64,000 bases of DNA from Paraphotobacterium marinum (lineage in GTDB: Bacteria > Pseudomonadota > Gammaproteobacteria > Enterobacterales > Vibrionaceae). How positions within the stretch are numbered: the first letter of the stretch is position 1; the number at the start of each line of letters is the position of its first letter. The translations under genes were made by a program, and so were the position numbers. The notes under the pieces were generated by a model that worked only from the letters and a program-made list of their open reading frames with translations, ran no database searches and was not told the DNA's origin. Below are positions 28,999 through 38,481 of the stretch, piece after piece. The DNA lies in NCBI RefSeq assembly GCF_002216855.1, contig NZ_CP022355.1:1282695-1346694 (forward strand). Direction: 5' to 3'.

Positions 28999-30103
28999 CA
29001 GTGAAGGGAGGAGAAAAAGCAATTGAATCCGCTCATGAATTACAAAATAAAAAAGAAGAGGTCCGTTAGCTACTCCTGAATTATCAGTAAAACAGATACA
29101 ATACCAATTAAGTGGATCGGTTGATCGAGTTATGACAGAAGGTGGTATATATGACCCTGAATTGGCTGCATTATCGATCAAACAAGCATCAGGAGATTTA
29201 GTCGAAGCAATATTTTTATTGAGAGCATACAGAACAACCCTTCCTAGATTCGTTACTTCAAAACCACTAGAAACAAATAAAATGGTTATTCAAAGAAGAA
29301 TTTCTGCAATATATAAGGATATTCCTGGTGGTCAAGTTTTGGGTCCAACTTATGATTATACTCATAGATTGCTTGATTTTTCCTTGTTGGCTGAAGGTTC
29401 AGATAATGAGGAAAAAACTAATAAAAAAGAAGAAAATCCATCTTTTTCAGAGGAAGACAATTATTCTCAAGTAACTTCAATGCTAGAAGAGGAAAATTTG
29501 TTAGTAATGGAAAAAAATACTGACTGTATTGCTTCAGATTTAACTATGAATCCAATTAGCTTTCCATGCGACAGATCAGCTAAATTACAGCAATTAGTCA
29601 GAGGCGATGAAGGTTTTCTTCTTGGTATGGGGTATTCCACTCAAAGAGGTTATGGAGATAATCATCCTTTTGTTGGGGAAATACGAATTGGAAATGTTTC
29701 TGTATCTGTTTTTTCAGAAGAATTAGGGTTTGAAATAGAGGTTGGGGAAATTGAAATATCAGAGTGTCAATTAATTAATGGCTTTACTGGAGATAAGAAT
29801 CAAAGAGCCAAATTAACTCGTGGTTATGGCCTGGCTTATGGTCATAATGAAAGAAAAACAATTTCAATTGCATTAGTTGATCGAGCTTTACAATCAAAAG
29901 AGTACAACGAAGCCGTTGAAAGCCCTGCGCAAGATGAAGAGTTTGTTTTATCTCATGCAGATAATGTTGAAGCCTCAGGCTTCCTTTCTCACCTTAAACT
30001 TCCGCATTATGTTGACTTCCAAGCAGACATAAATCTGCTCAGACAAATGCAAAAGGATTTTGATAATAATCAACAAAGTATTGAGAGAAAATCTAATGAC
30101 TAA
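28989..30103 (+). pseudogene. phnI: C-P lyase core subunit PhnI, one -1 frameshift
   Basis: PhnI releases adenine from ATP and transfers phosphonate to ribose-5-triphosphate. ATG 28989 opens MYVAVKGGEKAIESAHELQ, the family N-terminus, but the frame stops at 29067-29069. The -1 frame continues without a break: PLATPELSVKQIQYQL, DRVMTEGGIYDPELAAL and so on to 30103. The switch fits the A6 run 29049-29054; one more A gives KKRRGPLATPEL, the expected Arg-Arg-Gly turn, and a normal protein of about 371 residues. All other phn genes are intact, which argues for a sequencing artefact, a recent lesion or slippage rather than old decay. Its 3' end overlaps phnJ by 8 bases. Confidence 0.9.
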
Positions 30104-30998
30104 TTACAGCCTTACAGATAATAATCTTGAGCACATAGACAATGCTATGTCATATAATTTTGGGTATTTGGATGAACAAACTAAACGTATGATAAGACGT
30201 TCCATTTTAAAAGCAGTTTCAATTCCAGGATATCAAGTACCTTTTGCTGGTAGAGAAATGCCAATGCCATATGGCTGGGGAACAGGTGGTGTTCAATTAT
30301 CAGCTGCTATTTTAGGTACTAAAGATGTTTTAAAAGTCATCGATCAAGGTTCAGATGATACAACTAATGCTGTATCAATCAGAAATTTTTTTAAAAAAGT
30401 TTCTGGTATTGAAACTACAGAAGATACGGGTAAAGCAACAATCATTCAAACCAGGCATCGAATTCCAGAAGAACAATTAAATGAAAATCAGATTATTGTG
30501 TATCAAGTTCCAATTCCTGAGCCGATGCGCTTTATGGAAGCAAGGGAAACTGAAACTAGAAAAATGCATGCTCTGGAAGAATATGGCGTAATGCACGTCA
30601 AACTGTATGAGGATATTTCTAAATTTGGCACTATTTCAACAGCTTATAGATATCCTGTTTTAGTGAATAATAGGTATTTAATGGATCCATCACCAATTCC
30701 AAAGTTTGATAATCCAAAGATGGACAACATGAGTGCTTTACAATTATTTGGAGCAGGAAGAGAGAAACGGATTTATGCTATACCGCCCTTTACGAAGGTT
30801 AAAAGTTTAGATTTTGAAGATTATCCTTTTGAAATTCAAAAGTGGGATGAGAAGTGCAGTATATGTGGTTCTATTCATTCTTACCTTGATGAAGTTGTTA
30901 TGGATGACGAAGGAACAAGAATGTTCGTATGCTCAGATACAAATTATTGTAAAAAGCAATTGGAATTAAATCAAAATACAACGTTGGATAAAGCATGA
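30096..30998 (+). CDS. phnJ: C-P lyase radical-SAM subunit
   Basis: Cleaves the carbon-phosphorus bond of ribose-1-phosphonate-5-phosphate, giving alkane and the cyclic 1,2-phosphate. 300 residues from ATG 30096, inside the phnI 3' end; an upstream in-frame start at 30060 is unlikely. Four cysteines at 254, 257, 279 and 285 (EKCSICGS ... FVCSDTNYCKK) have exactly the E. coli PhnJ spacing (3, 22, 6) that holds the 4Fe-4S cluster. The phnK ATG overlaps its stop by 4 bases. Confidence 0.97.
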   Translation: MTNYSLTDNNLEHIDNAMSYNFGYLDEQTKRMIRRSILKAVSIPGYQVPFAGREMPMPYGWGTGGVQLSAAILGTKDVLKVIDQGSDDTTNAVSIRNFFKKVSGIETTEDTGKATIIQTRHRIPEEQLNENQIIVYQVPIPEPMRFMEARETETRKMHALEEYGVMHVKLYEDISKFGTISTAYRYPVLVNNRYLMDPSPIPKFDNPKMDNMSALQLFGAGREKRIYAIPPFTKVKSLDFEDYPFEIQKWDEKCSICGSIHSYLDEVVMDDEGTRMFVCSDTNYCKKQLELNQNTTLDKA

Positions 30999-31783
30999 GT
31001 AAAGAAGAACAACCATTACTAAAGGTCAGAAATTTAACTAAACTATTTGCAATAAATAAAGGCTTTCAAAATATTAATTTAGAAATTTATCCAGGAGAAG
31101 TTTTAGGAATAGTTGGCGAATCTGGTTCAGGAAAAAGTACTCTTTTAAAATCATTATCAGGAAGACAAGAGCCTGACAGTGGAAAAATTCATTACAATAT
31201 GTCATCAAATAATCAAGAAATGCTTGATTTATATAATGCAGATGAAAGTTTACGAAGAAAATTAATAAGAACAGAATGGGGTATTGTGCATCAACACCCA
31301 TTAGACGGGTTAAGACCTAGGGTATCGGCTGGAGGTAATATAGGCGAAAGACTCATGGCTTTAAATGAAAATAATTATAGTAAAATTAGATCTGAAGCAA
31401 TTAATTGGTTAGAAAGTGTTGAAATACCACAAGACAGAATAGATGATTTACCCATTATTTTTTCTGGCGGAATGCAACAACGTCTTCAAATAGCAAGAAA
31501 TTTAGTCACAAAGCCTAAATTGATTTTTATGGATGAGCCAACTGGTGGGTTAGATGTTTCAGTTCAAGCTAAGTTATTAGACTTATTGAGAAATCTTGTT
31601 ATTGAACTAGGCCTTTCTGTTGTCATTGTAACACATGATTTAGCCGTAGCGAGATTGTTAGCTCACAGACTTATTGTGATGAAACAAAGCAAAATTGTGG
31701 AAACTGGGTTAACCGATCAAGTTTTGGATGATCCACAACATCCTTACACACAACTTTTAGTATCTTCTGTTCTGCAAAATTAA
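30995..31783 (+). CDS. phnK: C-P lyase ABC-type ATPase PhnK
   Basis: 262 residues, ABC ATPase resembling the oligopeptide-transport group: Walker [14 protein letters not shown], signature [15 protein letters not shown], Walker [14 protein letters not shown]-loop VTHD, and a C-terminal [14 protein letters not shown] tail. Despite its fold it docks on the PhnGHIJ core in E. coli and is not a transporter part. It overlaps phnJ by 4 bases; phnL follows after 10. Confidence 0.95.
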
Positions 31784-31793
31784 GGCCGTTAAA

Positions 31794-32489
31794 ATGAATT
31801 CAATGATTAAAGTACATAATGTATGTAAAAAATTTATTCTGCATAATCAAAGTGGTATTGAAATTGACGTTTTAAACCAAGCAAGTTTTGCAGCAAACAA
31901 AGGAGAATGTATTGTTCTTAATGGTCAGTCAGGTTCAGGAAAATCAACACTTTTAAGAGCACTATACGGCAACTACTTAGTTGATAAGGGAAGTATAGAA
32001 GTTTGTCATGATAAAGAATGGTTTGATATTACAAAACTATCAAACAGAGAAATGTTAATGGTAAGAAAAAATATTATTGGTTGGGTTAGCCAATTTCTAA
32101 GAGTTATCCCGAGAATAAGTACATTAGATGTCGTTATGTTACCAATGTTAGAATTAGGTGGCTCCAAAGAAGTAGCTTTGAAGAAAGCTAAAAATTTACT
32201 TACTCGTTTAAATGTACCATCCCACCTTTGGAATTTAGCTCCTTCAACTTTTTCTGGTGGAGAACAACAAAGAGTCAATATAGCCAGAGGTTTTATCATT
32301 GATTATCCAATCCTTTTATTAGATGAGCCTACTGCATCACTTGATTCAAAGAATAGCGAGGTCGTAGTTGATTTAATTAATGAAGCGAAACAAAGAGGCT
32401 CATGTGTTATTGGAATTTTCCATGATGAAGAAATAAGAAAAAAAGTAGCTGATTGTTATTATGATATGAAACCAATCAATAATTTATAA
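31794..32489 (+). CDS. phnL: C-P lyase ABC-type ATPase PhnL
   Basis: 231 residues. Walker [16 protein letters not shown]-loop region [15 protein letters not shown] typical of PhnL, signature [14 protein letters not shown], Walker [14 protein letters not shown]-loop FHDEE. Works with PhnGHI in forming the ribose-phosphonate intermediate. Spaced 16 bases before phnM. Confidence 0.95.
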
Positions 32490-32505
32490 TAAAAGGACTT
32501 AAGAT

Positions 32506-33642
32506 ATGATTATTACTAATATTAAATTAATATTAAAAGATGAAATTATAAATGGTTCTATTGAGATAGAAGATGGGAAAATTAAAAATTTTTCTAATAC
32601 AACTTGCCATTTACCTTCAGCAATTGATGGAGGTGGGGCTTGGTTGATGCCTGGTTTAGTAGAGTTACATACAGATAATCTAGACAAATATTTTACACCA
32701 AGACCAAAGGTTAATTGGCCTCCTTTTTCAGCTATGAAAACCCATGATTATCAGTTGGCTTCAGCTGGCATCACAACTGTTTTAGATGCGGTAGCACTTG
32801 GAGATTGGCGAGATGGCGGGACAAGACAACAAAATATGTCTCAAATGATAAACACTATTACAGATAGTCAAAAAAATGGTATGAACAGAGTCGATCATTA
32901 TCTTCATTTAAGATGCGAATTACCTCATGAGAGTACAGTTCCTGATTTAGTAAAATATATTGATAATGATAACCTAAAATTGGTTTCTTTTATGGATCAT
33001 TCTCCTGGACAAAGACAATTTCAAGATATTAATAAATATAGAACTTATTATATGGGAAAATATAATTTTAATAGAGAAGAAATGGTGGACTATGAGCAAG
33101 ATCAAGTAAAACTTTCAAAGAAATGGTCAAGAAAAAATAGATTACATATCGCTCAACTGTGTCTTGAACGAATGATTTCTATGGCTAGTCATGATGATGC
33201 AACTCAAGAACATGTTCAAGAGTCACATCAATTATCTATGAATATAGCAGAATTTCCTACAACAATAGAGGCAGCAAAGCTTTCTCATGAATTAGGATTA
33301 AAGGTGCTCATGGGATCTCCTAATGTTGTTAGGGGTGGGTCTCATTCAGGTAATGTCGCAGCGCATGAATTAGCTCGTTTAGGCTATTTAGATATTTTAT
33401 CTTCTGATTATTATCCAATGAGTTTATTGGAATCAATTTTTTGTTTAACAAATGATAATAGAAATACTTTAAAATTACATGAAGCCGTTCGATTAGCTAC
33501 ATATAACCCTGCTAGGGCTTTAAATTTATTTGATAGAGGAGAAATCCAAGAAGGGAAACTTGCTGATTTGATTTTAGTTAAAGAAATTAATGGGCAAATT
33601 CTTATTGATAGAGTCTTTAAATCTGGCAAGGTTATATTTTAA
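32506..33642 (+). CDS. phnM: Ribose-1-phosphonate 5-triphosphate diphosphatase
   Basis: Amidohydrolase-fold enzyme that removes pyrophosphate from the ribose-phosphonate triphosphate before PhnJ acts. 378 residues. Metal-binding start MPGLVELHTDNLDKYFTPRP near residues 45-65; further conserved stretches are MDHSPGQRQFQD, SHDDATQEHV and GSPNVVRGGSHSGN. The phnN ATG follows its stop immediately. Confidence 0.96.
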   Translation: MIITNIKLILKDEIINGSIEIEDGKIKNFSNTTCHLPSAIDGGGAWLMPGLVELHTDNLDKYFTPRPKVNWPPFSAMKTHDYQLASAGITTVLDAVALGDWRDGGTRQQNMSQMINTITDSQKNGMNRVDHYLHLRCELPHESTVPDLVKYIDNDNLKLVSFMDHSPGQRQFQDINKYRTYYMGKYNFNREEMVDYEQDQVKLSKKWSRKNRLHIAQLCLERMISMASHDDATQEHVQESHQLSMNIAEFPTTIEAAKLSHELGLKVLMGSPNVVRGGSHSGNVAAHELARLGYLDILSSDYYPMSLLESIFCLTNDNRNTLKLHEAVRLATYNPARALNLFDRGEIQEGKLADLILVKEINGQILIDRVFKSGKVIF

Positions 33643-34191
33643 ATGAAAAAAATATTTTATTTTATGGGTGCATCAGGCTCTGGTAAAGATAGTATTATAA
33701 ATGCTATCAAGCGTCAAAACATAGAAAATCTGATGGTAGCCCATCGATATATTACAAGAAAGCCTGATTTAAGTGGAGAAAATCATGTTTACTTAACCAA
33801 TCATGAATTTAATACAAGATTGAAAAATAATTTATTTTCGATGTATTGGTCTGCTAACAACTATAAGTATGCTCTTGGTAAGGAAATAGAACATTGGCTC
33901 GATTCATCTTTTCACGTCTTAATCAATGGTTCTCGAGCATATTTGGGCAATGCTCAAAATCAATTTGGAGCTTCTTTGATTCCAATATCTATAAATGTCG
34001 ATCCTAACGTTTTAAAAGAAAGACTTTATTTGAGGGGAAGAGAATCACCTGAGGAAATAAATATGAGAATTAAACGATCGGAAGAGTTTAATCTAAATAA
34101 TAATGCTGATTATATTATTTCAAATAATGGAAGTATCGAAAGCAGCGTAGCTCAATTTAATGAGATATATAACATTTTTAATAATCAATAA
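33643..34191 (+). CDS. phnN: Ribose 1,5-bisphosphate phosphokinase
   Basis: Phosphorylates ribose 1,5-bisphosphate to PRPP, returning the C-P lyase sugar to nucleotide synthesis. 182 residues with guanylate-kinase-like fold: P-loop MGASGSGKDSII at residues 8-19, then RYITRKP, SMYWSANNYKYALG and a lid-like RLYLRGRESPEEI. Directly adjoins phnM; phnP starts 9 bases later. Confidence 0.94.
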   Translation: MKKIFYFMGASGSGKDSIINAIKRQNIENLMVAHRYITRKPDLSGENHVYLTNHEFNTRLKNNLFSMYWSANNYKYALGKEIEHWLDSSFHVLINGSRAYLGNAQNQFGASLIPISINVDPNVLKERLYLRGRESPEEINMRIKRSEEFNLNNNADYIISNNGSIESSVAQFNEIYNIFNNQ

Positions 34192-34200
34192 GGGGCTTTT

Positions 34201-34968
34201 ATGGCAACTTTTAAACTTCTAGGAACTGGAAATGCTGCGATGTGTCCTGTTTATGGTTGTGAATGCAAAGCTTGCAGTCGTGCATTAGAGGATCGTCATT
34301 ATAGAAGAAATAAAACATCTGCATGCCTAACTAGTAATGGTAAAAACTTGTTAATTGATGCAAATCATCATAATTTAATGGATATTTTTAGTAAAGGCGA
34401 TATTGATAGTATATTATTGACTCATTACCATATGGATCATGTCCAATCTTTATTTGATTTGAGATGGAGTGTCCACAATACAATTAATGTCTATGGACCT
34501 CCGGATATCAAAGGTTGTGATGATTTATTTAAACATCCAGGAATATTAAATTTTGATAATTTTTTAGAAGAATATAAGCCATTTTATTGGGAAGGTATTA
34601 AGATAACGCCATTGCCAATGATACACTCTAAAATTACTTATGGATATTTGTTTGATTCTGGTAAAAAAAAATTAGCCTATCTAACAGACACTCTTAACTT
34701 ACCGACAAAAGTTATATCTTTTATTAAACAAAATAAAATTGATTTTATGATATTAGATTGTAACTTTCCTCCTGCAGTTAACCAGCCTAGAAATCATAAT
34801 AATATAGATATTGCTATAGATTTGGATAATAAATGTAATCCTAAATTATTTGGTATTACACATATCAGTCATCAGTTAGATTGTTGGTTAATGGATGAAC
34901 AAAATTACTATACAAACAAAAGAAGATTCGTAGCATACGATGAGCAGGAGTTCTTTTTAAATGATTAA
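34201..34968 (+). CDS. phnP: 5-phosphoribosyl 1,2-cyclic phosphate phosphodiesterase
   Basis: Opens the cyclic phosphate left by PhnJ to ribose 1,5-bisphosphate, the PhnN substrate. 255 residues of metallo-beta-lactamase fold. The extra zinc site is visible as CPVYGCECKACSRA (about 15-28); the catalytic motif THYHMDHVQS lies near residue 75, with later ligands in YLTDTLN, LDCNF and THISHQLD. An AGGGG ribosome-binding site precedes it. The end overlaps the hexapeptide-transferase gene by 8 bases. Confidence 0.95.
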   Translation: MATFKLLGTGNAAMCPVYGCECKACSRALEDRHYRRNKTSACLTSNGKNLLIDANHHNLMDIFSKGDIDSILLTHYHMDHVQSLFDLRWSVHNTINVYGPPDIKGCDDLFKHPGILNFDNFLEEYKPFYWEGIKITPLPMIHSKITYGYLFDSGKKKLAYLTDTLNLPTKVISFIKQNKIDFMILDCNFPPAVNQPRNHNNIDIAIDLDNKCNPKLFGITHISHQLDCWLMDEQNYYTNKRRFVAYDEQEFFLND

Positions 34969-35590
34969 GAAAAAATTAATGAAAGACAAATTACATTTGG
35001 GAGTAAATACAAAATTATCTAACTTTAATCATGGTATATATAATAAAGTAGGTTCTAATTGTATATTGACAGATGTTCAGCTAGGTGATTACTCCTACAT
35101 AGAGCCAGGATGTGATATAATGTATACCAATATCGGTAAATTTACCTCAATAGCATCCAATGTAAGAATAAATCCTAGTAATCACCCTTGGTGGAGACCA
35201 ACGCTACACCACTTTTCATATAGACCTGGGGAATATGGTTTTGATAATGATGTTAATGCTTTAGACGATGAGATTTTTGAATGGCGTAAACAAGAATCTG
35301 TTACTATAGGTCATGACGTATGGATAGGTCATGGAGCAATTATAATGCCTGGAGTTACAGTTGGTAACGGTGCAATTATAGGATCTGGCAGCATAGTGAC
35401 TAAAGATATCAAAGCTTGGTCAATATATGTAGGTAATCCAGCAAAATTTTTAAGAAGTAGATTTGATGATAAGCTTTCAGAACAATTTGAAAAATTAAAA
35501 TGGTGGGATTGGCCAGAAAAAAAATTACGAGAAAATCATGAAATGTTTAGAAAAGATGCCAAATCATTTTTAGATGATTTTATTGAATAA
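34961..35590 (+). CDS. Hexapeptide-repeat acetyltransferase of phosphonate operons
   Basis: 209 residues of left-handed beta-helix. Hexapeptide-type turns appear from residue 30 to 75 (LTDVQLGDYSYIEPGCDIM, IGKFTSIASNVRI) and 110-150 (TIGHDVWIGHGAIIMPG, VTVGNGAIIGSGSIV), with the HPWWRPTLHHFSYR loop between them. This matches the transferase family repeatedly found in phn operons (TIGR03308-type). It may acylate a phosphonate such as aminomethylphosphonate, the role of PhnO elsewhere; no phnO is present here. It probably starts at an ATG within the first ten codons and ends the operon. Confidence 0.85.
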   Translation: MIKKKLMKDKLHLGVNTKLSNFNHGIYNKVGSNCILTDVQLGDYSYIEPGCDIMYTNIGKFTSIASNVRINPSNHPWWRPTLHHFSYRPGEYGFDNDVNALDDEIFEWRKQESVTIGHDVWIGHGAIIMPGVTVGNGAIIGSGSIVTKDIKAWSIYVGNPAKFLRSRFDDKLSEQFEKLKWWDWPEKKLRENHEMFRKDAKSFLDDFIE

Positions 35591-35619
35591 CATTTAATAT
35601 TTTTTATGTAAACTATATC

Positions 35620-35660
35620 TTAAGTTAGTAATCATTTTATTTAATTAATTACTAACTTAA
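35620..35660. terminator. Bidirectional hairpin after phn operon
   Basis: Perfect 13-bp arms TTAAGTTAGTAAT / ATTACTAACTTAA (35620-35632, 35648-35660) with a 15-base loop. It lies between the convergent phn operon and the Gly-His-Asn repeat gene. No long T tract follows, but position and symmetry suggest a terminator for both. Confidence 0.65.
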
Positions 35661-35678
35661 TAAATTTGGTTTCTACAT

Positions 35679-36089
35679 TTATTGTCCATTGTGTCCATTG
35701 TGTCCATTGTGTCCATTGTGTCCATTGTGTCCATTGTGTCCATTGTGTCCGTTGTGTTTAATATATTTTTGCCAGTCATTTTTATGGCGCTGTTCTCTTC
35801 TATATTGTTTATAGTGTTCGTTATTATGCTTCCAATCATTTTGATGTCTTTGCCAGTTATCCTTATGATCTCTATGCTTTATAGTAATATTTGAGTTTGC
35901 TAAACCTTCTGCAATGTCTTGAGCAACAAGATCACTATCATCATTATTTAGATCCTCAGAGATATTTGCTACCATACCAACTAACGCCCCAGCGTTTTCA
36001 ATTTTGATGGTATCGGCATTTGTTACAAAAGGAAAACTTAAAATTAACAACGATAAAGTTATAGTTGAAAAAATAATATTTAATCTCAT
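35679..36089 (-). CDS. Secreted His/Asn-rich protein with Gly-His-Asn tandem repeat
   Basis: 136 residues from ATG 36089 (AAGAGG 9 bases upstream). A signal peptide (residues 1-25, ending Thr-Asn-Ala-Asp) is followed by a short conserved-looking domain (about 26-65, acidic, with GALVGMVANISEDL), a His/Asp/Lys/Arg-rich segment (KHRDHKDNWQRHQNDWKH), and a C-terminal run of Gly-His-Asn triplets ending Gly-Gln. The composition suggests periplasmic metal binding, but no family is recognised. The repeat is made of identical 9-base units, so copy-number changes keep the frame. Confidence 0.75.
   Translation of the reverse strand: MRLNIIFSTITLSLLILSFPFVTNADTIKIENAGALVGMVANISEDLNNDDSDLVAQDIAEGLANSNITIKHRDHKDNWQRHQNDWKHNNEHYKQYRREQRHKNDWQKYIKHNGHNGHNGHNGHNGHNGHNGHNGQ
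35681..35750. repeat. Tandem 9-bp repeat coding Gly-His-Asn
   Basis: One partial ATTGTCC followed by seven identical ATTGTGTCC units on the plus strand (GGACACAAT on the coding strand), with a degenerate unit next. Perfect identity suggests recent slippage expansion. It is in frame in the host gene. Confidence 0.95.
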
Positions 36090-36315
36090 ATTTATTAACC
36101 TCTTAATTTTTTGAGTCATGTTATTTTTGAATAAATCAAATTAAATTAATATTGAATTGTGATTAAAAGGTGCTTTTTGGGATTACTGGTATATTTATTA
36201 ATTAATATTATGAGATTAATTAAATGTTTTGGAAGTTTTATTATGTGAAATTATCCCAGTTTTCGTCCCAGATAGTGGCAGAATTTATAATTTGAATGGC
36301 TTTTAAATACTAGCC

Positions 36316-36346
36316 CACAATAATATCTTTTGGCTATATTATTGTG
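36316..36346. terminator. Hairpin downstream of ovoA
   Basis: Perfect 11-bp arms CACAATAATAT / ATATTATTGTG with a 9-base loop, about 40 bases after the ovoA stop. No clear T tract follows on the minus strand; it may be a weak terminator or mRNA-end structure. Confidence 0.45.
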
Positions 36347-36387
36347 AGTTATGGATTGAAATTTTTAATTGTATTTAATTAATTTTG

Positions 36388-38481
36388 CTAAATTTCTGTT
36401 TTTTTTTTCCAAATTGTTACTTCAGTATATGAATGCTGAAATTTGTTGCTAGTTTCTCTTATAACAAAAGGAATTTTTTCAGGTTCTTTAATTAAAATGA
36501 AATGATGTTGTAATAAATTTTTAATTTCAAAAAAAGAAGAAACTTGTTCACCATATTCATTAGTGTAACCACCCAACCAATCTTTCTTATCAGTAAAATC
36601 CTCAAGCCAGGTATATGGAGAAGCTAAAACTAAAATCCCATCTTCATTTAAGTGATTATGTATCGATGTCAAAAATTGCTTAGGTTTTTTTAGTCTATCT
36701 ATTAAATTACAAGCTAAAATTAAATCAAAAGATTTTATTTTTTCAGGTAAATTACATGCGTCAGCTTGAATAAAGCTTATATCTTTCTTAGTTGCACTAT
36801 GCTCAAAAGCAACTTCTTGCGATTCAGTTAACAGGCCTTCTTTTACTAATTGATATTTTATGCTACTTCTCTCAAGGATATTGTATGCAGTTTGAATAAA
36901 GCGGGCTGAGAAATCGATACCTGTTACATTTTTAAAAGATTTTGATAACTCAAAACAAGATCTACCTACAGAACATCCAATATCTAGTGCAGTATTAAAA
37001 TTAATAGCATTATCTTTACAAATATCAGAAATTTTTAGCATCAAATTAGGTGTTTCAAAGTATGATGGTCCATAGTGAAAATGAATATATTGAGATACCG
37101 ATGTGTCAGTTTCATATATATTTTCTGATTTTTGCTCTGCATAGTCTGATTGAACATATTTAAAACCAGCGTGCTGATAAAAATGCTCTCTAAAAGCATA
37201 ACGAGAAAATTTCATAATTTCATTACCTGTTGAAATAAAAGAACCTCCTTTCATTATTTTATGTCTATTGTCAAAAGTAGGAACTGAAAAATCATCATAC
37301 ATAGGGTGAGTTTTGAAGCCATCATAACCCGATATATTTGTTTCAGTCCATTGCCAAACATTTCCCACAAGATCGAATATTTCACCAAAAGAAAATTTAT
37401 CTACGGGGCAGGGAGATGCATAGAAGTTGATGTTGTAATTAGCTGGGTGATTCAATAATTGTTGTTCTGAAAAGTTTTCTCTTATTAGGTACCACTCTGT
37501 TTCATAAGGTAATCTAATTTTTTTATTTTCTTTTATTGATTTCCAGTTACAGAAAGCTTTTGCTTCTAAGTAATTAACCTCCACCGGCCAGCTCCAGGGC
37601 ATAGGAATAACCTTATTAATAACTCTTAAAAAGTACTCGTCATTTTTGTGCAGCCAAAAAACTGGAAGGTTGATGTTTTGATTTTTTTTCCACTTTACTC
37701 CATCATCAGACCAAAAATTATCGTTAGTATATCCTTGATCATTTATAAACTCTAAAAACTCACCATTGGAAACAGAGAATTTACTAATTTTAAAATCTTG
37801 AACAGTTTTACTTTCTTGTCCATATTCATTGTCCCATCCATAGAAATCTTCATTTATGTCTTTGCCAAGAGATAAAGTACGTCCCTTAAAACTAACAAAT
37901 TTATTTTTTGGAAATTGTTTTGAGATTAAGTTACAAGTTTTCCATCGTTCACTTTCACTTTTCAAATGCTTTAACTTTAAATGCCGAATTAAAACAGATG
38001 ATGTTTCTAAATGAATACGCTCATGTTCAATACCCATTAAAATAACCCACCATGGAGACTGTTGATGAATTGTATCGGTTAATTCCAGTTTATCTATCAA
38101 CTTGAGTACAGTTTCAAATACTTGTTTTCTATAAATTCTAACGTCTTTAGCTGACGGCCAGTCAAACTTTGTTTTGTTTATGTCGTCCCATGACATTTCA
38201 TCAACACCAACCGCAAAAAGACTTTCAAAATTGTCATTTATGCGTCGATCAATTAATCCACTTAGCATAAATTTATTAATATAAAAAACAGCAGTATGAC
38301 CGTAATAAAAAATTAAAGGATGTCTTAATTTGTCAGGTTGTTGAAAAAAAGTTTCATCATTGTCTAAAAGAGAGAATAAACTTTCATAAAGTTCGAATGA
38401 ATTAATAAAATAATTTCGTATTTCATCTTTTTTATTATTTGATTCTTGTGTATTTAAAGAGGGCGTGACTAATGATTTCAT
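36388..38481 (-). CDS. ovoA: 5-histidylcysteine sulfoxide synthase / mercaptohistidine methyltransferase
   Basis: Makes the thiol-histidine antioxidant ovothiol: oxygen-dependent joining of cysteine to histidine C5, then N-methylation. 697 residues, full length. N-terminal DinB-like part with the iron motif H153-x3-H157-x-E159 (EHERIHLE) and a further His at 62 (YYGHTAV). Central formylglycine-enzyme-like domain (about 215-450; FDLVGNVWQWTETNISGYDGF, MKGGSFISTG). C-terminal SAM methyltransferase (about 470-697) with ALDIGCSVGRSCFELS and ILACNLIDRL. The fused methyltransferase separates OvoA from EgtB. The PLP lyase OvoB is not in this window. Confidence 0.95.
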   Translation of the reverse strand: MKSLVTPSLNTQESNNKKDEIRNYFINSFELYESLFSLLDNDETFFQQPDKLRHPLIFYYGHTAVFYINKFMLSGLIDRRINDNFESLFAVGVDEMSWDDINKTKFDWPSAKDVRIYRKQVFETVLKLIDKLELTDTIHQQSPWWVILMGIEHERIHLETSSVLIRHLKLKHLKSESERWKTCNLISKQFPKNKFVSFKGRTLSLGKDINEDFYGWDNEYGQESKTVQDFKISKFSVSNGEFLEFINDQGYTNDNFWSDDGVKWKKNQNINLPVFWLHKNDEYFLRVINKVIPMPWSWPVEVNYLEAKAFCNWKSIKENKKIRLPYETEWYLIRENFSEQQLLNHPANYNINFYASPCPVDKFSFGEIFDLVGNVWQWTETNISGYDGFKTHPMYDDFSVPTFDNRHKIMKGGSFISTGNEIMKFSRYAFREHFYQHAGFKYVQSDYAEQKSENIYETDTSVSQYIHFHYGPSYFETPNLMLKISDICKDNAINFNTALDIGCSVGRSCFELSKSFKNVTGIDFSARFIQTAYNILERSSIKYQLVKEGLLTESQEVAFEHSATKKDISFIQADACNLPEKIKSFDLILACNLIDRLKKPKQFLTSIHNHLNEDGILVLASPYTWLEDFTDKKDWLGGYTNEYGEQVSSFFEIKNLLQHHFILIKEPEKIPFVIRETSNKFQHSYTEVTIWKKKTEI

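Follow-up and report, generated by a model that had tools for sequence, protein, structure and literature searches.

An orphan, secreted-looking His-rich protein with a pure Gly-His-Asn repeat in Paraphotobacterium marinum, a possible metal ligand

The window analyzed here, a stretch of 64,000 nucleotides from chromosome I of Paraphotobacterium marinum NSCS20N07D, carries on its minus strand one open frame of 136 aa (ATG at 36089-36087, stop at 35681-35679), which encodes a His-rich protein ending in a Gly-His-Asn array. For this gene, the open frame, the array, the His content, and the coding signal were observed directly. Our preferred explanation, to which we assign a probability of roughly 0.4, is that the gene is restricted to the P. 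marinum lineage and that its product would be exported by Sec and bind borderline divalent metals (Zn, Ni, Co or Cu(II)) with low affinity and high capacity, any benefit from the repeat number being presumed. According to the genome report, the strain has two chromosomes of 1,426,504 and 1,161,949 bases and a plasmid of 5,539 bases, 2,593,992 in total, and was assembled from 131,203 PacBio RSII reads of a 10-kb library (PMC5649133).

An alternative in-frame ATG lies 30 bases upstream and would give a longer ORF (35679-36119, 146 aa); the start at 36089 was preferred because a Shine-Dalgarno-like AGAGG stands 9 bases ahead of it. The protein begins with MRLN and a hydrophobic core running to TNA, continues through DTIKIE, an acidic stretch, a His/Trp/Asn/Gln-rich segment and KHN, and ends with (Gly-His-Asn)7 and Gly-Gln before the stop. 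At the local base composition, the probability that the 113 non-repeat codons stay open is ~8e-5. Codon usage was trained on 31 long ORFs of the window and scored on these 113 codons, yielding a log-likelihood of +13.7 in the gene's own frame; the remaining five frames scored between -8 and -18, and none of 2000 base shuffles matched the gene's value. Since codon usage and open-frame length both support coding, the gene is probably real. A promoter scan of 35400-36600 returned 13 sites, compared with 8.5 (sd 3.2) in shuffles, and was uninformative for this gene. The features of the locus are listed in Table 1.

Table 1. Positions in the window of the His-rich gene, its parts, and the flanking inverted repeats
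Feature	Position	Strand	Basis
Orphan secreted-looking His-rich CDS, 136 aa	35679..36089	-	open frame, codon usage, upstream AGAGG
Signal peptide region (putative), residues 1-25, MRLNIIFSTITLSLLILSFPFVTNA; proposed cut before DTIKIE	36015..36089	-	translation by eye
Acidic, low-confidence stretch, residues 26-71	35877..36014	-	translation; pLDDT about 41-50
His/Trp/Asn-rich segment, residues 72-114; a single helix is predicted for most of it (76-114)	35748..35876	-	AlphaFold2 single-sequence model
Seven identical GGACACAAT units, (Gly-His-Asn)7	35688..35750	-	sequence and TRF
Inverted repeat, 23-nt arms, 83% complementary; between the His-rich gene and the convergent phosphonate genes	35615..35665	.	
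Inverted repeat, 16-nt arms, 88% complementary; between ovoA and the His-rich gene	36311..36351	.	

The earlier note on this DNA had reported an in-frame 9-bp array of pure Gly-His-Asn, and this was confirmed. The frame contains exactly seven GGACACAAT units in succession. Ahead of them lies an incomplete unit, ACACAAC, in which one base differs, and after them come GGACAA and the stop codon. TRF reported 8.3 copies with 98% matches and a score of 143, the next-best score among the 16 rows for the 64 kb window being 54. Identity of the seven units extends to synonymous positions, which points to a probably young array produced by recent duplication. Variation in its copy number is plausible.

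The N-terminus, judged by eye, resembles a Sec signal sequence. The mature chain of 111 residues contains 14 His, one Met, and no Cys, and the 88 residues before the array hold 7 His together with Asp, Asn, and Trp. Among the 58 window ORFs of at least 100 aa (overlaps dropped), the protein ranked first in His content, at 9.6% for the 146-aa form against 4.7% for the next ORF and a mean of 2.1%. On these grounds the earlier description of a His-rich, secreted-looking product holds. Within the His/Trp/Asn-rich segment, W79, W86, and Y93 are spaced by seven residues, and H88 and H92 form an HX3H pair. The AlphaFold2 single-sequence model is of low confidence overall (mean pLDDT 55.9, pTM 0.30), with block means of 76-86 over residues 81-110; it predicts the helix fairly confidently and leaves the Gly-His-Asn tail as a floppy, unstructured extension. 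Comparison of the model with the PDB by Foldseek gave three matches, the best at E 5.9. A PDB sequence search returned seven rows at E up to 1; the best of them (E 0.003), to an engineered fusion protein, was ascribed to low complexity.

The start of the gene lies 298 bases past the end of the ovoA frame, with which it is co-oriented, while the phosphonate genes run convergently towards it. Its adjacent genes are ovoA and a phosphonate acetyltransferase gene, with phnP next. NCBIfam models for OvoA (ovothiol synthase), PhnP, and the phosphonate acetyltransferase were matched above their cut-offs and SanA below its cut-off; among the neighbors tested in this way there was no metal-homeostasis gene. 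The inverted repeat on the phosphonate side is a possible shared terminator, and the one on the ovoA side may separate transcription of the His-rich gene from that of ovoA; a terminator scan reported neither. No Rfam match was obtained for 35500-36500 at E up to 0.1. The best Zur-like site upstream agreed with an E. coli consensus at 14 of 22 positions, which 99 of 300 random stretches equaled. The upstream regions of the genome's own znuA genes reached only 15 of 22, and this consensus may not fit P. marinum. Fur-, NikR-, and CpxR-like sites, also scored against consensus sequences, were at background upstream of the gene (equaled by 211, 217, and 169 of 300 random stretches, respectively). 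Elsewhere in the genome there are two genes of the FUR family, and two binding proteins of ZnuA type are also encoded.

The neighboring phosphonate gene run, of the C-P lyase type, occupies 29132-35590 of the window and ends with phnP and the phosphonate hexapeptide acetyltransferase gene, both of which matched NCBIfam family models. The names of the others are provisional: the frame 29132-30103 is presumably PhnI, with no NCBIfam match at E up to 1e-10, and the frames 30995-32489, standing within the run, we take to be ABC-ATPase-like.

Relatives were sought with the 113-aa non-repeat part, which matched 94 of 329 Vibrionaceae genomes, its own included, at E up to 1. The best match outside its own genome (E 7.1e-4, 31% over query residues 11-101; L008 in G132) spans most of a 121-aa frame with a signal-like start. 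Together with the overlapping frames after it, this frame looks like a broken gene for what we assume to be a phosphate-binding protein, and the match was attributed to chance and signal-sequence likeness. Two other matches (L009 and L013), inspected for ORFs of at least 60 aa, contained no secreted His-rich frame. The 146-aa protein, compared with 61 genomes including its own, was found in its own genome only, where a protein search up to E 10 returned itself and one match at E 7.98. The plasmid and phage collections gave no match. A short-peptide scan, built on octapeptide patterns that reach close relatives only and that distant ones outside the Vibrionaceae could escape, picked up six viral contigs and 72 stretches of genome_contigs, none of which was confirmed. 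No genome of the same genus was among those listed for comparison.

The repeat itself was searched as a (GHN)3 DNA pattern, which occurred among 296 Vibrionaceae in the P. marinum genome only, and elsewhere in 107 stretches of genome_contigs and seven viral contigs. In 73 of these 114 loci the repeat lay in a frame open for at least 100 codons, and six had at least seven triplets. A filter for an M start, a hydrophobic stretch, and a length of at most 300 aa left four loci, with no more than three triplets in a row; by eye, none shared the layout of the His-rich protein, and they were rejected. With tblastn, the non-repeat part gave nothing below E 2 against the 114 loci. Because Gly-His-Asn triplets are scattered over many phyla in unrelated frames, the triplet defines no family. 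A looser HxxH pattern, present in 134 of 150 genomes and often apparently in other reading frames, was dropped as uninformative. Our literature search on Gly-His repeat proteins found none. The author of the earlier note did not know the family, which is borne out by the lack of any Pfam or NCBIfam match above cut-off and of any confirmed relative. That note had also proposed a homologue search, and it counted against its reading an empty result together with a lack of transcription, or a repeat number produced by faulty assembly; no homologue was found in the collections searched. The sequence comparisons are best read as indicating a protein restricted to the P. marinum lineage; the lack of homologues on which to measure selection weighs against the metal-ligand reading.

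Binding of zinc, copper or nickel, as the earlier note suggested, agrees with the composition; neither a family match, nor a regulator-like site above background, nor a metal-related neighbor added to it. The Pfam scan at E up to 1 matched only Collagen and Tri-helical, both below cut-off, and no metal-binding family, and the NCBIfam scan likewise gave no metal-binding family above cut-off. The domain of the ZrgA family, whose Pfam name we take to be DUF2796, was not matched in the Pfam scan at E up to 1, and no transporter gene, such as the ABC transporter genes that accompany ZrgA, was seen directly beside the His-rich gene. Hpn and Hpn-like of Helicobacter, described as nickel-binding, are likewise small and His-rich; Hpn-like is cytoplasmic and has a His/Gln composition. 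The window protein differs from them in its signal-like sequence and its Gly-His-Asn repeats. The parallel with the best documentation, also from the Vibrionaceae, is the periplasmic ZrgA of V. cholerae, whose disordered, His-rich loop contributes zinc sites in vitro, most of them of low affinity (PMC9820375). This loop is reported to be dispensable in vivo (PMC9820375), so being His-rich need not mean being functional. The fold of ZrgA is ferredoxin-like, and its gene is part of a transporter operon (PMC9820375), whereas the window protein is unrelated and without a Pfam match above cut-off.

Given that the mature chain contains 14 His and one Met but no Cys, the natural guess is that it binds Zn, Ni, Co or Cu(II) weakly. 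Sec would carry the product into the periplasm or beyond. Its helix would offer a few His sites, namely the HX3H pair 88/92, His 82, and His 102, with His 72 and 75 just ahead, and the flexible (Gly-His-Asn)n tail would add evenly spaced His side chains. Slippage could change the number of triplets up or down without loss of the frame. Trace metals are scarce in pelagic waters. If metal is bound, the protein would be a compact example, from a pelagic bacterium, of binding capacity governed naturally by a 9-bp repeat that is prone to slippage yet keeps the frame; if not, it would be one more taxonomically restricted, low-complexity secreted protein. The observation is confirmed and its interpretation partly supported, leaving an orphan of familiar kind and a modest curiosity.

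Other explanations were weighed against metal binding. The protein could be a young orphan secreted protein whose tail arose simply by slippage and does little or nothing, its richness in His being incidental. The identity of the units at synonymous positions, which points to recent duplication, the lack of a confirmed relative, and the occurrence of Gly-His-Asn triplets elsewhere in unrelated frames and tails all fit this account; nevertheless, the 7 His in the 88 residues beyond the array and a codon usage like that of an established gene speak against it, and we consider it somewhat unlikely. That the repeat number or the frame is an assembly artefact is barely conceivable: only one assembly of one strain is at hand, but it was built from long reads (PMC5649133), the array is only 75 bp, which PacBio RSII reads should span, and the coding frame is unbroken. 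We also give little credence to a pH-responsive or surface-sticking envelope or surface protein that does not handle metals. The computed net charge does shift from -2.3 at pH 8.1 to +12.7 at pH 5, but this would be true of any His-rich protein, and the sole adhesin-type match was SclA, at 16.4 bits against a cut-off of 400. The weak match to this collagen-like SclA (E 0.0056), together with that of the tail to Pfam Collagen (E 0.0095, 16.1 bits), could suggest a collagen-like Gly-X-Y triple helix. However, both fall below their cut-offs (400 and 27.2 bits), and there are only about eight triplets, none with Pro, making such a helix highly implausible.

His-rich composition recurs in this genome, which speaks for the metal-ligand reading: a cluster on chromosome II (745135-746721; L005 6136-7722) consists of four consecutive small ORFs that are likewise His-rich and secreted-looking. 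The last and largest, of 188 aa, carries a 9-bp unit encoding GGH (~13 copies) and a 12-bp unit encoding GGHN (14.5 copies). The window protein might be a far-diverged relative of this cluster with one common envelope role. Both the 188-aa member and the window protein have a signal-like sequence, a His/Trp segment, and a Gly-His tandem array. Their array DNAs match at 79% and 76% identity (E 5.3e-10 and 4.2e-8), as those of any two Gly-His arrays would. The best alignment with the cluster, RDHKDNWQRHQNDWKHNNEHY in the window protein and RHHNDHWRHHHDDWRWHHRHH in the His/Trp segment of the 188-aa member, scored 69, a value reached 2 times in 2000 when the entire non-repeat part of the mature chain was shuffled. 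When only the His/Trp segment was shuffled, however, 84 of 2000 did so, and shared composition therefore appears to explain most of the likeness. Moreover, the scores with the other three cluster proteins were equaled by 402, 81, and 35 of 2000 shuffles, the own-genome protein search up to E 10 did not return the cluster, the units differ (GGH and GGHN in the cluster), and no alignment went clearly beyond composition. We thus regard such a relationship as improbable, and as more doubtful still the bolder idea that P. marinum evolved its own set of exported Gly-His repeat proteins, small ones comprising the window gene and the cluster, as envelope metal sponges whose capacity the repeat number would tune and which might stand in for systems that disappeared as the genome shrank.

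Within the cluster, a protein search with the third ORF found the first and fourth, and against 100 genomes (own included) it gave one further weak match, with internal stops (G015, E 2.9e-4). The first ORF weakly matched the NCBIfam model Sap1 at E 6.9e-4 (19.7 bits, cut-off 125), a name that the literature search traced to work on Burkholderia. Upstream of the cluster (L002 1-130) there is a perfect match to a CpxR consensus, GTAAA-N5-GTAAA, which none of 300 random window stretches equaled. It came from one of 28 consensus-by-region tests, and neither of the other two upstream stretches examined for the cluster had such a site; it hints at envelope-stress control of the cluster. On the minus strand at L005 3809-4821, two overlapping frames resemble two parts of a broken arsenite-efflux-type gene, which we take to be ACR3. 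Dense repeats matching the HxxH pattern were also seen on the minus strand of chromosome II at 301-1915; our guess is that they probably represent alternative reading frames of a large repeat protein rich in Asp.
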